Source: Acidimicrobiia bacterium
GTDB taxonomy: Bacteria; Acidobacteriota; Vicinamibacteria; Vicinamibacterales; CAVVIG01
Direction of reading: 5' to 3'
Length of the DNA: 64,000 nt
Assembly: GCA_016871175.1 (NCBI GenBank)
Contig: VFZL01000001.1
Coordinates: 192,218 to 256,217 of the forward strand
The position numbers and the translations under genes were made by a program. The first letter of the stretch is position 1. Every line of letters begins with the position of its first letter. This document shows positions 1 through 47,125 of this stretch, piece by piece. Under the pieces are notes generated by a model, which did not search any database, had not been told where the DNA came from, and was given only the letters and a program-made list of their open reading frames with translations.

Positions 1-11
1 AGCCTGTCGTG

Positions 12-1238
12 ATGACATCACGCATGCGTCTCATCGGCGCCCGTTCGGCACTCGTCTTGATAGGGCTGGCGGTTTCATGCGCACGGCCCGAGGGTCCGCT
101 CACCGGACGGTGGGCCGGCATTGTCGAGGCCAACAAGACCGAGGTGCCGTTTGAGTTCGAAATCGTCGAGGACGGTGAGGCGATCCGGGCGTCGTTTTTC
201 GACGGTGACCTGAGGGTGACCTCAACCGACGGTCAGTGGTACGGAGACGAGGTCCGGCTGGCGTTCGCGCAATACGGTGCCGAGCTCGTCGCGCACGTTC
301 GCAGCGGCCAGCTGGTGGGCATGTACAACCGCGGGACGCGTGTGCCGTACCCGATCCGCGCGATACGAGCCGACGCCGGGAAGGCCGCGCCGCCGCCTGG
401 CGCGGTCCCCGACATTGCCGGCGAGTGGACGATTCCACACGACAGCACGAAAGGGGAACGGGCCTGGCGCCTTTTGGTTCGGCAGGCCGGGGCCGACGTG
501 TCCGCCGCAATTCTTAGAGTCGACGGCGACACGGGGACGCTCACCGGCGGATACCGGGACGGCGGGTTCCTGTTGAGCCACTTCTCCGGCGCCCGGCCAT
601 TGCGCCTCGAGATCACACCCCAGGCCGATGGAAGCCTGGCGCTACTGCAGAACAAGCAGACCGAGTTGAAGGCCTATCGGGCCGACGACGCGCAGGCCAG
701 AGCGCTGCCAACGCCCAGCGACCCGGCGGCGCACACGCGTGTGAAGGATCCTCAGGCGCGGTTCACGTTTCAGTTCCCTAACGTGAACGGCCATTCAGTC
801 TCGCACGACGACTTCCGAGGCAAGGTGCTGGTGGTCAGCATTACAGGCAGCTGGTGTCCCAATTGCCACGACGAGGCGCCATTCCTGGTCGAATTGGACC
901 GGAACTATCGCGAGCGCGGGCTGGCGGTGGTGGCCTTCTCGTTCGAGGAAGAGGACCAGCTTACGGCGCCGGTTCGATTGCGGGCGTTCATGCGGACCTA
1001 CGGCATCACCTATCCCGTGTTGCTGGCGGGACTGCCGGAACAGCTCGCCGAGAAGGTGCCGCAGGCGGAGAACCTGAACGCGTTTCCGACCACGCTGTTC
1101 GTGGGGCGCGACGGACGCATTCGGTCCATTCACGCCGGATTTGCAAGTCCAGCGTCTGGAGCGTTCTTCTCGAAGGGCAAGAACGAGATCATCGGGACCG
1201 TCGAGCGCTTGCTGGCGGAGCCACCGCCACAGACATGA
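12..1238 (+). CDS. TlpA-like thioredoxin-fold lipoprotein
   Basis: Exported thiol-disulfide oxidoreductase of the TlpA/ResA type, 408 residues from the ATG at 12 (a GTG at 9 is in frame just before it). The N-terminus has a basic start, a hydrophobic stretch and a Cys near residue 23 (LAVSC), suggesting a lipoprotein facing the periplasm. Residues ~30-235 are a beta-rich region that I do not recognise and that looks partly duplicated. Residues ~245-400 form the thioredoxin fold, with the redox motif WCPNC around residues 281-285 and the cis-proline segment AFPTTLFV near 358. The family reduces or isomerises disulfides on exported proteins such as c-type cytochromes; the substrate here is unknown. 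The next strongly supported element downstream is the separate sulfur operon with its own promoter-like sequence, so this gene is probably not part of it. Confidence 0.85.
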   Translation: MTSRMRLIGARSALVLIGLAVSCARPEGPLTGRWAGIVEANKTEVPFEFEIVEDGEAIRASFFDGDLRVTSTDGQWYGDEVRLAFAQYGAELVAHVRSGQLVGMYNRGTRVPYPIRAIRADAGKAAPPPGAVPDIAGEWTIPHDSTKGERAWRLLVRQAGADVSAAILRVDGDTGTLTGGYRDGGFLLSHFSGARPLRLEITPQADGSLALLQNKQTELKAYRADDAQARALPTPSDPAAHTRVKDPQARFTFQFPNVNGHSVSHDDFRGKVLVVSITGSWCPNCHDEAPFLVELDRNYRERGLAVVAFSFEEEDQLTAPVRLRAFMRTYGITYPVLLAGLPEQLAEKVPQAENLNAFPTTLFVGRDGRIRSIHAGFASPASGAFFSKGKNEIIGTVERLLAEPPPQT

Positions 1239-1320: not shown

Positions 1321-1350
1321 TTGACAGTAAAGACCCGTTTCGGTTACAAC
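1321..1350 (+). promoter_or_regulatory. Sigma70-like promoter of the sulfur operon
   Basis: A perfect TTGACA at 1321-1326 is followed after 18 bases by TACAAC at 1345-1350, which matches TATAAT at four of six positions. Transcription would begin near 1357-1360, on or just before the start codon of the polycysteine leader peptide. The leader would then be translated from a leaderless or nearly leaderless transcript. The call rests on sequence match only. Confidence 0.5.
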
Positions 1351-1359
1351 CAACGGGAG

Positions 1360-1461
1360 ATGTCGGATCTGGGCCGAGCTGCGTGTTGTTGTTGTACAGG
1401 CACCCGATGCCTCCGCGCCGGCACGTTCTTCGTGTGGGATCCGAAATTGCGAGTCACTTAG
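1360..1461 (+). CDS. Polycysteine leader peptide (attenuator uORF)
   Basis: A 33-codon ORF running from ATG 1360 to TAG 1459-1461. Residues 9-12 are four consecutive cysteines encoded by TGT TGT TGT TGT (1384-1395), with a fifth Cys codon at 1408-1410. It lies directly upstream of a terminator hairpin and the TauE-cysD-cysN sulfur genes. The arrangement is that of an amino-acid leader peptide: with little Cys-tRNA, ribosomes stall on the Cys run and leave the segment at 1408-1427 free to pair with the terminator. Polycysteine uORFs that regulate sulfur genes are known from mycobacteria. The reading frame is open further upstream, so an earlier start cannot be excluded, but GGGAG lies just before this ATG and the promoter-like sequence fits it. 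Confidence 0.75.
   Translation: MSDLGRAACCCCTGTRCLRAGTFFVWDPKLRVT
1408..1427 (+). promoter_or_regulatory. Antiterminator segment inside the leader ORF
   Basis: Bases 1408-1419 (TGCCTCCGCGCC) can pair with 1493-1504, the 5' arm of the terminator, at 11 of 12 positions; the only other mismatch-free alternative is 1421-1427 (GCACGTT), which pairs perfectly with 1504-1510 in the terminator loop and 3' arm. The segment begins 13 bases after the four Cys codons, so it would be free under a ribosome stalled there and covered when translation continues. The pairing is read directly from the sequence; the regulatory role is inferred. Confidence 0.65.
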
Positions 1462-1492
1462 CAACCATCAGTTCCACGCTGAATGTTCCGAA

Positions 1493-1522
1493 GGCCCGGA
1501 GGCAACGTGCTTCCGGGCTTTT
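1493..1522 (+). terminator. Intrinsic terminator (attenuator) before TauE-cysDN
   Basis: The hairpin GCCCGGAGGC (1494-1503), loop AACGT, GCTTCCGGGC (1509-1518) has a 10-bp stem with one G-U pair and is followed by TTTT (1519-1522). It lies 31 bases after the stop of the polycysteine leader peptide and 39 bases before the first structural gene. That is where a transcription attenuator would be expected, not the end of a gene. Confidence 0.8.
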
Positions 1523-1561: not shown

Positions 1562-2506
1562 ATGGAGCCCTACGCCATCTTTCTCGCGGTCATCACATTC
1601 GGCGCGGCCATCGTCAACGGGGCACTCGGCTACGGATTTTCGTCCCTGACGGTACCGCTGGCCTTGTTGTTCCTGGCCAACCGGGTGCTGAACCCCGCGC
1701 TCGTGCCGATCGAGGTGGCGCTCAATGCCTACGTGCTGTGGGTCAATCGTGATGCGCTGCCGAATGTGTGGCGGCGGATGCTTCCCATCGTCATCGGCTT
1801 GTTGCCTGGCGTCCTCCTTGGAACGACGATCGTGACGCAGGTGAGCCCGGCATGGCTGAAACTCGGCACGTACTTCGTGTTGCTCCCCCTGATCCTCCTG
1901 CAGGCCGCCGGATTCCGTCGTCCCATCCGATCGGAGCGGTCGATCGGGTTCCTGTTCGGTGGCGGTGTAGGTGTGCTGTATTCGGTGACCACCATCTCCG
2001 GCCCGCCTCTGGCGGTCATGTTGAGTAACCAGGGCTTCACCAAGAGGGACTTCCGCGCGTCACTCGGGTTCATCCGGCTCGCCGAGTCCTCGTTCACCGC
2101 AGTGGCATACGGCTATGCGGGGCTCTTTACGCACGAGAGCATGGCGCTCATCCCGATGATCCTGCCGAGCATTGCGATTGGCGTCCCCATTGGGGCGTAC
2201 CTGATTCAGCACATTCGCCCAGAGACGTTTCGTCGCGTGTGCATGAGCTTTGACGCCTGGGTGGTTGCGTTCGGCATCTCAACGCTTCTGCGGGAGGTTC
2301 GGTTCGTCGACGGCTGGGCCGCCTTCAGCGTGTTGCTGGCCGTGATCGTCATCGATGCCTGGATGCTCTATCGGTTCTTCCACATCCATGCGCCGCGCAT
2401 CGCGGCAGAAGAGGCGCATGCGACCGCGTTGCGTGCGGCCGAAGCGCGCGTGTTCGCCTCCGCCAGTACGTTCGCCGTCAGTGTCCAGAAACCAGCCATC
2501 GAGTAA
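1562..2506 (+). CDS. TauE/SafE-family sulfite/sulfonate exporter
   Basis: Polytopic inner-membrane protein of 314 residues with about eight hydrophobic segments and the TauE/SafE repeat pattern; glycine-rich segments ([11 protein letters not shown] near residue 20, [18 protein letters not shown] near 132-150) are typical of the family. Members export sulfite, sulfoacetate or related organosulfur anions. It is the first gene of an operon with cysD (2 bases later) and cysN and lies behind the Cys-responsive leader, so a role in handling sulfite or another sulfur anion during assimilation is likely. The substrate cannot be assigned from sequence. The C-terminal ~50 residues after the last membrane segment are probably cytoplasmic. 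Confidence 0.85.
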
Positions 2507-2508
2507 CC

Positions 2509-3471
2509 GTGAGACCATCTGCCACCACGTCGGACCAGTCACGCCGGGCTCTCGGCTCTCCCGGGGCTGTCACCTCACATGAGCATTTGAGAGCGCTCGA
2601 GGCGGAGAGCATCCACATCATGCGTGAGGTGGTCGCCGAGTTCGAGCGACCGGTCATGCTGTACTCGATCGGCAAGGATTCCTCGGTGCTGCTGCGGCTG
2701 GCGCAGAAGGCCTTCTATCCCGGTCCGATCCCGTTTCCGCTGCTCCACATCGACACGACCTACAAGTTTCGCGAGATGATCGAGTTTCGCGATCACTACA
2801 CGCGGGAAGTAGGCGCACGGTTGATCGTGCATACGAATGAAGAAGCGATCGCCGAAGGAACGCAGCCGTTCGTGGTGGGAACGCAGCGCTGCTGTGGCGC
2901 GCTCAAGACGAAGGCGCTGCTCGACGGTCTGGCAGCCGGCGGATTCGACGCGGCGTTCGGTGGAGCGAGACGCGACGAAGAGCGCTCTCGCGCGAAGGAG
3001 CGGATTCTGTCGCTGCGTGACGCCAACGGTCAGTGGGACCCGAAGAACCAGCGGCCTGAGCTGTGGCACCTGCTCAATGGACGCGTGCAAAAAGGGGAGA
3101 GCATCCGCGCCTTCCCGTTGTCGAATTGGACCGAGATCGACGTGTGGTCGTACATCCACGTCGAGCACATCCCCGTGGTCCCGCTGTACTTCGCCAAGGA
3201 GCGTGAAGTCATCGTGCGCGGCGAGTCGCTCATCGCGCTCGAGCAGCCGTTCGTGCCGATGATGCCAGGCGAGAAGGCGCAGAGGGTGATGTGTCGCATG
3301 CGCTCCCTCGGGTGCTCGCCGTGCACCGGAGCGGTTCGCTCGACGGCGGACACCGTGCCCAAGATCATCGAAGAGCTCATCGTGGCGAAGAACTCGGAGC
3401 GCCAACTGCGCATCATCGATCACGACCAGGACGGGTCGATGGAACTCAAGAAGCGCGAAGGGTACTTTTGA
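2509..3471 (+). CDS. cysD: Sulfate adenylyltransferase subunit 2
   Basis: Catalytic subunit of ATP sulfurylase, which forms adenosine 5'-phosphosulfate from ATP and sulfate. It belongs to the PAPS-reductase-like N-type ATP pyrophosphatase fold, with the loop [13 protein letters not shown] near residue 50. The track of conserved segments ([38 protein letters not shown]) matches CysD throughout. It starts at a GTG two bases after the TauE stop and is 320 residues long, about 18 more than the E. coli protein, with the excess at the N-terminus. Its TGA overlaps the cysN ATG by one base, so the two are probably translationally coupled. Confidence 0.95.
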
Positions 3472-4772
3472 TGTCCGGCCTGCTTCGGATCTGCACCGCT
3501 GGCAGTGTGGACGATGGGAAGAGCACGCTCATCGGGCGCCTGCTGTATGACTCACGATCCGTCTACGAGGATCAGGTGTCGTCGGTGCAGAAGGCATCGA
3601 AGAACCGGACGGCGGGACCAATCGATTTTTCGCTGTTTACCGACGGCCTTCGCGCGGAGCGCGAGCAGGGGATCACCATCGACGTCGCGTATCGGTACTT
3701 CGCCACGGCACGCCGCAAGTTCATCCTGGCGGACACCCCCGGGCACGAGCAATACACTCGTAACATGGCCACCGGGGCCTCGACGGCGGACGTCGCCATT
3801 CTGCTGGTCGACGCGCGCAACGGGGTTCGCCCGCAGTCGCGTCGCCACGCGCGCATCGCGCGCCTGTTGGGTATCACCGACTTCGTCCTGGCTGTCAACA
3901 AGATGGATCTGATGGAGTTCGATCGAGGGGTGTTCGATCAGATCTGTGATGAGTTCGCGGAAGCGCTGCACGGGGCACGCTTGCACCCCATTCCGATGAG
4001 CGCGCTCCACGGCGACAACGTGATCACGCGCAGCGAACGGACGCCGTGGTTCGAGGGGCGATCGCTCCTCGAGTATCTCGAAACCGTGGATGTCGAGCGC
4101 AGCCAGCACGGGAAGCCGTTCCGCTTCCCCGTCCAGCTCGTGCTGCGGCCGGACCACAACTTCCGTGGGTACGCGGGACAAATCGTCTCGGGAACGATCT
4201 CCGCGGGCGACGCCGTGACAGTCTGGCCCTCGGGTCGCACCACGCGAGTCGCGCGCATCGTGACCTGGGACGGAGACATCGACCAAGCGCGGTCTCCGAT
4301 GTCGGTGACGCTGACCCTCGAGGATGAGATCGACATCAGTCGGGGGGATCTGATTGCCACCGGCGACGTCGAGGTCGGCCAGCGGTTCAGGGCTGACGTG
4401 GTGTGGATGGACGAGCGGCCCCTGGACCCATCCCGCGTGTACCTCTTGAAGCACTCCACGCGGACCGTTACCGCTGAGGTGGACCACGCGCTCGTCTTGA
4501 ATCAGATCGGGTCGGTGACGGTGTCCACGGCGCGGCCGATTCTGTTCGACCGCTACAGCGAGAATCGCAGCACGGGCGGCTTCATTCTGATCGACCCCAA
4601 GACGAACTTCACCGCCTGTGCGGGGATGATTTCAGAATCATTGGGCCGGCACGCCGCGACTTCGGCGCGCCCGAGCGCCGCCGAGCGGATCGCGAGACTG
4701 GCGAGGGCCTCCGGATCGCATGACGAAGCGGTCGAGGCCGTCCGCAAGGCCCTCGAGGCGTTACTCACCTAG
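3471..4772 (+). CDS. cysN: Sulfate adenylyltransferase subunit 1 (GTPase)
   Basis: GTPase subunit that drives CysD-catalysed sulfate activation. It has an EF-Tu-like fold of 433 residues with the P-loop GSVDDGKST near residue 13, the switch II motif DTPGHEQYTRNMATGAS near 88, and NKMD near 143, followed by two beta-barrel domains. It starts at ATG 3471, overlapping the cysD stop by one base. An in-frame extension to 3291 exists but lies inside cysD and does not resemble the family. There is no C-terminal CysC (APS kinase) domain, unlike NodQ-type fusions, and no cysC or cysH follows, so later steps of assimilation must be encoded elsewhere. Confidence 0.95.
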   Translation: MSGLLRICTAGSVDDGKSTLIGRLLYDSRSVYEDQVSSVQKASKNRTAGPIDFSLFTDGLRAEREQGITIDVAYRYFATARRKFILADTPGHEQYTRNMATGASTADVAILLVDARNGVRPQSRRHARIARLLGITDFVLAVNKMDLMEFDRGVFDQICDEFAEALHGARLHPIPMSALHGDNVITRSERTPWFEGRSLLEYLETVDVERSQHGKPFRFPVQLVLRPDHNFRGYAGQIVSGTISAGDAVTVWPSGRTTRVARIVTWDGDIDQARSPMSVTLTLEDEIDISRGDLIATGDVEVGQRFRADVVWMDERPLDPSRVYLLKHSTRTVTAEVDHALVLNQIGSVTVSTARPILFDRYSENRSTGGFILIDPKTNFTACAGMISESLGRHAATSARPSAAERIARLARASGSHDEAVEAVRKALEALLT

Positions 4773-45919: not shown

Positions 45920-47125
45920 TCAGGCCGGCGGCGCTAGGACCGTGCAGACCGACGCGCAGATGGGGCCGCCGATGTTGAATGTGGCGGCGTACCGCGGATT
46001 TGCCACCTGGAGCTCGCGCGGTGCCTTGCCGGCCAGTTGCCACGCGGACCAGCCAATCATCGCGATGCCGGTCGCGCCGATCGGGTGACCCTTGGCGATG
46101 AGGCCGCCCGACGTGTTGATGGCGCACTCGCCGGTGACCGCCGCGCGCTCGTCGGCCCAGTATCGGGCGCCGCGACCGACGTCCGCCTTGCCGACGACCT
46201 CGGTCCCAATCGCACCCATCACGGTGAAGCAGTCGTGCAGTTCGGCCACGTTGACCTCGTTGGCCTTGATGCCTGCCATCGTGTAGGCCTTCTGCATAGC
46301 GCGGTACGCACCGGCCGGGCGGAGCACGTCGCGCCCGGCCTTCTTGAGCGGATCGGTCGCCTGCGCCCAGCCCGCGAGCCGTACGCACTGCGCCGGCGAC
46401 AGGCCGAGACGCTCGAGCCCCTCGCGCGTGGCGAGCATCATCGCCGCGTAGCCGTCACTGATCTGCGAGCAGTCGTACGTCTTGAGCGGGAGCCCCTCGA
46501 CGATGGAGCGATTCACGCCCTCGAGGGTTTCGGCCACGTCGAGCGTCAGGGTCACGTCGCGCATCTGGGCGAACGGATTGAAGCGGGCGTTCGCGTACTC
46601 CGTCACGGCGATCGACGCGAGCTCCCGCGCCGTGACGCAGTGCGTGGCCATGTAGGCGGCCATCACCTCAGCAAAGAGATGCGGGAAGACGAACACCTTT
46701 CCTTCCCGCTCATCGGGATGCGAGAAGTACCCGAGCACGCGTCCGATGAGCTTGCCGTCCATCTTCCCCGCGGCGTCCCGCATCTTCTCGAACCCGACGG
46801 CGATGCCCACGTCACCCAGCTCGAGCTGCAGCTTGTGCACGACCGAGAGCACCGCCTGTCCACCTGTGGCACACGCGTTCTCGACGGCTTCGATGGGCTT
46901 GCCCTCGAGACCCGGCACGCTGGCCAGGAGACCCGCGAGCAACCCCTGTTCGTTCAACGAGAAGTTGCAAGCCGAGCCTATCGAGGCGACGTCGATGGCC
47001 GATGCCTCAACGCCGATCTCCTGGCACGCGCCCGTAACGGCGCGCTCGATGATCGACGGTACGGTCATATCGAACAGCTTGCCGAAGGGCGATTGGTGGT
47101 ACGCGGCAATGTAAATGGGCTTCAT
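45920..47125 (-). CDS. Thiolase-family protein (acetyl-CoA acetyltransferase-like)
   Basis: About 401 residues from ATG 47125 (MKPIYIAAYHQSPFGKLFD); ATG 47137 is also in frame. The acyl-accepting Cys lies in VENACATGGQAVLS near 88, the His of NEVNVAELHDCF near 292, and the second active-site pair in GLIAKGHPIGATGIA near 345 with a final Cys in GGPICASVC. The sequence is nearer to SCP2-thiolase/lipid-transfer types than to beta-oxidation FadA. It probably cleaves or condenses a branched acyl- or steroid-CoA. No fatty-acid or hydratase gene lies adjacent, so the pathway is open. Confidence 0.9.
   Translation of the reverse strand: MKPIYIAAYHQSPFGKLFDMTVPSIIERAVTGACQEIGVEASAIDVASIGSACNFSLNEQGLLAGLLASVPGLEGKPIEAVENACATGGQAVLSVVHKLQLELGDVGIAVGFEKMRDAAGKMDGKLIGRVLGYFSHPDEREGKVFVFPHLFAEVMAAYMATHCVTARELASIAVTEYANARFNPFAQMRDVTLTLDVAETLEGVNRSIVEGLPLKTYDCSQISDGYAAMMLATREGLERLGLSPAQCVRLAGWAQATDPLKKAGRDVLRPAGAYRAMQKAYTMAGIKANEVNVAELHDCFTVMGAIGTEVVGKADVGRGARYWADERAAVTGECAINTSGGLIAKGHPIGATGIAMIGWSAWQLAGKAPRELQVANPRYAATFNIGGPICASVCTVLAPPA

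Follow-up and report, generated by a model that had tools for sequence, protein, structure and literature searches.

The DNA analysed here (the window, 64,000 nucleotides of an Acidobacteriota genome) carries, in front of a TauE-cysD-cysN operon, an element that we interpret, with a probability of roughly 90%, as a transcription attenuator of the classical leader-peptide type, by which the level of charged cysteinyl-tRNA would control this operon. Read from the sequence, it comprises a predicted promoter, a nearly leaderless ORF with a run of Cys codons, the mutually exclusive helices 1:2, 2:3 and 3:4, and an intrinsic terminator before the first gene (Table 1). The enterobacterial trp, his, leu and thr attenuators consist of a leader rich in the regulating amino acid, helices 1:2, 2:3 and 3:4, an intrinsic terminator and a biosynthetic operon, and the element in the window has the same defining anatomy. 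It differs from them in the amino acid, i.e. cysteine instead of Trp, His, Leu or Thr, in the nearly leaderless start of the ORF, and in the phylum, Acidobacteriota; moreover, while the enterobacterial attenuators each serve a single operon, here many separate targets make up a regulon. Anatomy, conservation, compensatory base changes and gene association carry this interpretation.

Table 1. Features of the attenuator and of the genes that follow it (positions in the window)
Feature	Position	Strand	Basis and details
Sigma-70-type promoter	1321..1350	+	Sequence; TTGACA 1321-1326, 18-nt spacer, TACAAC 1345-1350
Leader-peptide ORF, 33 codons, nearly leaderless	1360..1461	+	ATG 1360, stop TAG 1459-1461; peptide MSDLGRAACCCCTGTRCLRAGTFFVWDPKLRVT
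Four consecutive TGT (Cys) codons, predicted sensor	1384..1395	+	Sequence; Cys runs conserved in relatives
Region 1 (AGGCA), 5' arm of the 1:2 hairpin	1398..1402	+	Sequence, folding, helix 1:2 covariation
Region 2 (TGCCTCCGCGCC), 3' arm of 1:2 and antiterminator strand	1408..1419	+	Pairing and covariation tests
Region 3 (GGCCCGGAGGCA), pairs with region 2 and forms the 5' terminator arm	1493..1504	+	Pairing and covariation tests
Intrinsic terminator	1494..1522	+	GCCCGGAGGC 1494-1503, loop, GCTTCCGGGC 1509-1518, T run 1519-1522; helix 3:4 covariation
TauE/SafE-family sulfite or sulfate transporter, first regulated gene (predicted)	1562..2506	+	Pfam PF01925, E 9e-26
cysD, ATP sulfurylase small subunit (PAPS_reduct)	2509..3471	+	Pfam PF01507, E 9e-48
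cysN, ATP sulfurylase GTPase subunit (GTP_EFTU)	~3468..4772	+	Pfam PF00009, E 3e-43; position by tblastn

Most of these features had been claimed in an earlier sequence-only reading. The 33-codon ORF it described and the coordinates it gave for the four TGT codons hold base for base, the downstream genes are confirmed by Pfam, and regions 2 and 3 do pair at 11 of 12 positions, the exception being a C-C mismatch at the ninth. Likewise, the terminator stem with its TTTT was found where it had been placed, 31 nt beyond the ORF stop, counted from the stop codon to region 3. The promoter is absent from that reading and was found when the window sequence was re-read; it places the predicted transcription start (~1356-1360) within a few bases of the ATG, which lies ~39 nt downstream of TTGACA, and thus the ORF would be nearly leaderless. 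In the window, the 2:3 duplex has an energy of -23.6 kcal/mol (p = 0.012 against shuffled spacers), which is modest for one GC-rich sequence, and therefore the argument against chance is made mainly through conservation.

We infer the sensing of cysteinyl-tRNA by ribosome stalling, and the direction of regulation, as follows. When cysteine is plentiful, the ribosome would pass the Cys codons and region 2 would be covered or paired with region 1; the terminator 3:4 would then form and transcription would end before the operon. When cysteinyl-tRNA is scarce, the ribosome would stall at the Cys codons and mask region 1, which in the window lies where a ribosome halted at the later Cys codons would cover it. 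Region 2, just beyond the stalled ribosome, could then pair with region 3, so that the terminator would be blocked and the operon transcribed.

To follow the element in relatives, we gathered TauE relatives by protein similarity and family search, and independently performed a class-wide CysD protein search with retrieval of the upstream DNA, in which leader information was not used to find the loci. The nearest TauE relative (L002, same genus) as well as L003 and L006 have the same plan, i.e. promoter, Cys run, hairpin and a GCCCGG-type terminator; other TauE relatives have Cys-rich leader ORFs with no recognisable terminator. Several genomes have a second Cys leader with a terminator between TauE and cysD, directly before cysD. 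The class is taken to be Vicinamibacteria, since one member of the collected protein family is labelled Luteitalea, a genus placed there. A cysD homologue was found in 72 of 193 genomes of the class, and at the 20 cysD loci with a strong terminator close upstream, a Cys-rich ORF was present just before the terminator in all 20. These 20 loci, L014 and L019, and four TauE cases (the window genome and relatives) gave an alignment of 26 attenuators. Their Cys runs contain 85 TGT and 42 TGC codons, i.e. the runs are kept while the codons interchange. The alignment across relatives thus supports the attenuator proposed from the window sequence: the Cys run and the pairings are conserved, the antiterminator pairing is kept by compensating changes, and the element recurs before sulfur-assimilation genes throughout the class. 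At one locus (L006/L126/L242; G121 contig 1, ~46022-46409), two divergent attenuators, for TauE and for cysDN, lie back to back in a single intergenic region.

In the 26 leaders, the true pairs of region 2 and region 3 were stronger than swapped pairs (permutation p = 3e-4) and region 2 paired better than shuffled spacers overall (Fisher p = 2.7e-7, uncorrected for relatedness); these and the following p-values are optimistic because relatives are non-independent samples. Column counts gave two-sided changes in helices 1:2, 2:3 and 3:4 that exceeded those in slid controls; however, MAFFT put some terminators one column out of register, which weakens these counts for all three helices, whereas the energy-based pairing tests are unaffected.

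To obtain a replicate, we built a covariance model (R1) from the 26 leaders, encoding helices 1:2 and 3:4 and not 2:3. From the matches, 80 further loci were fetched and a Cys run and a scorable terminator were present in 78 of 80; since R1 includes the Cys codons this Cys content is partly circular, while gene content and helix 2:3 are free of circularity. In these 78 loci, found by a model without helix 2:3, the true 2:3 pairs had a mean of -21.8 kcal/mol compared to -18.9 kcal/mol for swapped pairs, and none of 20,000 permutations was as good; in the CysG group alone, again no permutation matched the true pairing. Helix 2:3 had z = -9.2 and the terminator stem, the positive control, z = -15.4, while five controls (terminator 3' arm, spacer, upstream DNA, downstream DNA and reversed region 2) had no clear effect (|z| ≤ 1.4). 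For helix 1:2, the sign was wrong with fixed windows, and z was -7.6 when region 1 was taken as the whole interval between the Cys codons and region 2; thus, support for this helix depends on how region 1 is defined.

The leading edge of a ribosome lies at +12 from the first base of the A-site codon, as taken from established footprints. Region 2 starts at a median of 12 nt past the last Cys codon (IQR 10-14; 78 loci) and, therefore, would begin at about the edge of a ribosome with this codon in its A site. In agreement with the proposed stalling, when a ribosome was modelled as stalled on the last Cys codon, region 2 became more accessible at the stage preceding synthesis of region 3 in 22 of the 26 aligned leaders and 74 of the 78 replicate loci. 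The stop codon is past region 2 in 75/78 loci and is at least 20 nt before the terminator, and never inside it, in 78/78 (median 28 nt). A promoter motif close to the ORF is also common: at 91 of 105 loci an in-frame start is combined with a TTGAC no more than 110 nt upstream of the Cys run, compared to TTGAC in 2 of 36 control windows; the start codon lies at a median of 39 nt after TTGAC, a distance that is biased because the start was chosen near 39. By equilibrium folding, the terminator was favoured in most full-length leaders including that of the window, even with a modelled stalled ribosome, so that the switch would have to operate kinetically, as known attenuators do. Moreover, in a simple model the truncated RNA of the window forms 2:3 with or without a stalled ribosome; therefore, the off state in the window would need helix 1:2 to form first or the ribosome to cover region 2.

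The sequence-only reading understated its case in that the element in the window is one member of a large regulon. R1 had matches in 122 of 193 genomes of the class; in a phylum sample that includes class genomes, 42 of 396 had matches, and those outside the class were few and mostly weak. Two inspected out-of-class matches, L292 (before a cysH-like gene) and L302, have Cys codons and a terminator. Nearly all fetched R1 loci precede cysG, cysH, cysK, TauE or other sulfur and redox genes. The first gene was readable at 79 loci. The siroheme synthase N-terminal domain (CysG) is matched by 35 of these genes, followed by 12 PAPS-reductase-domain proteins, 10 TauE, 9 tetrapyrrole methylases, 5 cysteine synthases, 5 AhpC/redoxin proteins, 4 Cons_hypoth698 and 4 DUF2061 (families can overlap within one protein). 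Because gene content is not part of R1, these targets independently support a function in sulfur metabolism. By contrast, a search of the window genome for four consecutive TGY codons gave 57 sites, about as many as in the control, and a Cys run alone is thus not diagnostic. Altogether, we consider it likely that cysDN, cysH, cysG, cysteine synthase, sulfonate/sulfite transport and thiol-redox genes form a class-wide cysteine regulon controlled by transcription attenuation from nearly leaderless polycysteine ORFs, with the same attenuator repeated at many individual targets. On this view, close relatives have the leader in a translational form, and MAGs labelled Gemmatimonadetes in a form with a terminator.

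The window genome itself carries two further attenuators. One (L303; G000 contig 1, 191979 to ~192190, just left of window base 1) has the Cys leader MGRRSAATCACCPGFC... and the terminator GGGGCCCGGTAGGCGAG... and precedes a TlpA-like/redoxin gene at window 9-1238; since this gene adjoins the element in the window, two neighbouring transcription units have cysteine attenuators. The other (L201; G000 contig 31, 7497-7641) has six or seven Cys codons and precedes a CysG-like gene with a siroheme synthase N-terminal domain. Elsewhere, a cysteine synthase fused to a Prok-JAB domain (PALP + JAB; L280:375-1784) lies behind an R1 match, and in a complete genome of the order (G186; L274/L294) a Cys attenuator is present before a gene for an NMT1-like binding protein. 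Finally, in L207, L221 and L226 a DUF2061 gene lies directly 3' of a Cys attenuator, followed in L207 by a cysH-like gene, and this points to a role related to sulfur for the membrane protein family.

The ribosome on the Cys codons could instead unmask the start site of the next gene, i.e. act by translation attenuation as proposed for mycobacterial polycysteine ORFs. This output is suggested by related Acidobacteriota in which no terminator was found at Cys leaders before TauE or its operon, and in which GGTGAGAAG, CTTCTCC and GGAGAAG could mask the Shine-Dalgarno site. In twelve such loci (L004, L005, L008, L011, L013, L014, L021, L030, L047, L085, L093 and L128), the Cys leader, often TGTCGATGCNNNTGT, has no recognisable terminator, and the Cys motif is followed by GGTGAGAAG at or near the leader stop, CTTCTCC and, mostly, GGAGAAG before the next start. 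Judged from these motifs, the terminator-less leaders are likely a translational version of the same switch, and translational output probably exists in related Acidobacteriota. For the window, however, this explanation is very unlikely: although the ORF there has a Cys run and, judged from promoter position, would be nearly leaderless, similar to those in mycobacteria, the mycobacterial type regulates translation without a terminator, whereas a terminator hairpin followed by T residues is present in the window and at ~100 sister loci. Moreover, covariation links region 2 to the 5' arm of the terminator and not to the sequence downstream of it. The leaders in MAGs labelled Gemmatimonadetes (L009, L016, L017, L020, L023, L029 and L049) are polycysteine leaders with a terminator (GGCCCGGCCACC...) before TauE, and their region 2 is mostly 13 nt past the Cys run. 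In L011 and L047, the interval between leader and TauE contains short stretches that by eye resemble remnants of both ends of a lost gene; this gene may have encoded a TonB-dependent receptor, such as is seen upstream of TauE in L007, L010, L014 and L019.

Two further explanations assign the Cys codons another meaning. With four adjacent cysteines, the peptide could be a functional thiol- or metal-binding protein, of which small Cys-rich examples exist, and the terminator could merely end its own small transcript or that of an upstream gene. We regard this as less likely still, because the peptide sequences diverge beyond the Cys run, Cys residues vary in number and spacing, and the antiterminator covariation would be left unexplained; the one conserved C-terminal stretch, VPALSV in cysD leaders, corresponds to RNA region 2. 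Least likely is that the Cys codons play no part and the leader is a metabolite-binding riboswitch or is bound by a protein. The window leader is indeed structured, folding better than 200 of 200 dinucleotide shuffles (z = -2.84); however, no known Rfam leader or riboswitch family matched the window at gathering score, the alignment has no conserved aptamer-like core between the Cys codons and the terminator beyond helices 1:2 and 2:3, and the Cys codons persist over ~100 loci with both codons in use.

Cysteine leaders have been described in other bacteria. In Actinobacteria, short ORFs with Cys runs precede cys operons; no conserved terminator hairpins were found and Rho was suggested to be involved (Seliverstov et al. 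2005, PMC1262725). The Cys-run ORFs are thus common to both groups, while the leaders described here have an intrinsic terminator and a covarying antiterminator. According to the accounts in PMC13236596 and PMC9031893, the leaderless polycysteine ORFs of mycobacteria (Canestrari et al. 2020) respond to cysteine, lie upstream of sulfur genes and act by translation attenuation; as far as these accounts go, the leaderless Cys-run ORF and the sulfur genes are alike, and the output predicted here differs in being transcription termination. The ilvB1 leader of Mycobacterium tuberculosis is a leader-peptide transcription attenuator with anti-terminator and terminator hairpins (PMC13236596); it is likewise outside the enterics and it concerns branched-chain amino acids instead of cysteine. 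In 2010, leader-peptide systems were known to the authors of PMC2965389 from Proteobacteria and Actinobacteria only, besides the one in Firmicutes that they reported, and almost none of the Acidobacteriota attenuators predicted in a survey of that year had a known function (PMC2965389). In line with the earlier claim that such an element is undescribed, our search of openly accessible papers gave no description of a transcription attenuator for cysteine that uses an intrinsic terminator.

If our interpretation is correct, ribosome stalling at Cys codons would run the sulfur assimilation of a whole class through many separate operons, in a phylum that is among the commonest in soil. The leaders also form a natural set in which one sensor is connected to transcription termination in some lineages and apparently to translation in others, so that the evolution of attenuator output could be studied directly. 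Finally, the leaders flag likely sulfur genes, including ones of unknown role such as DUF2061 and Cons_hypoth698.
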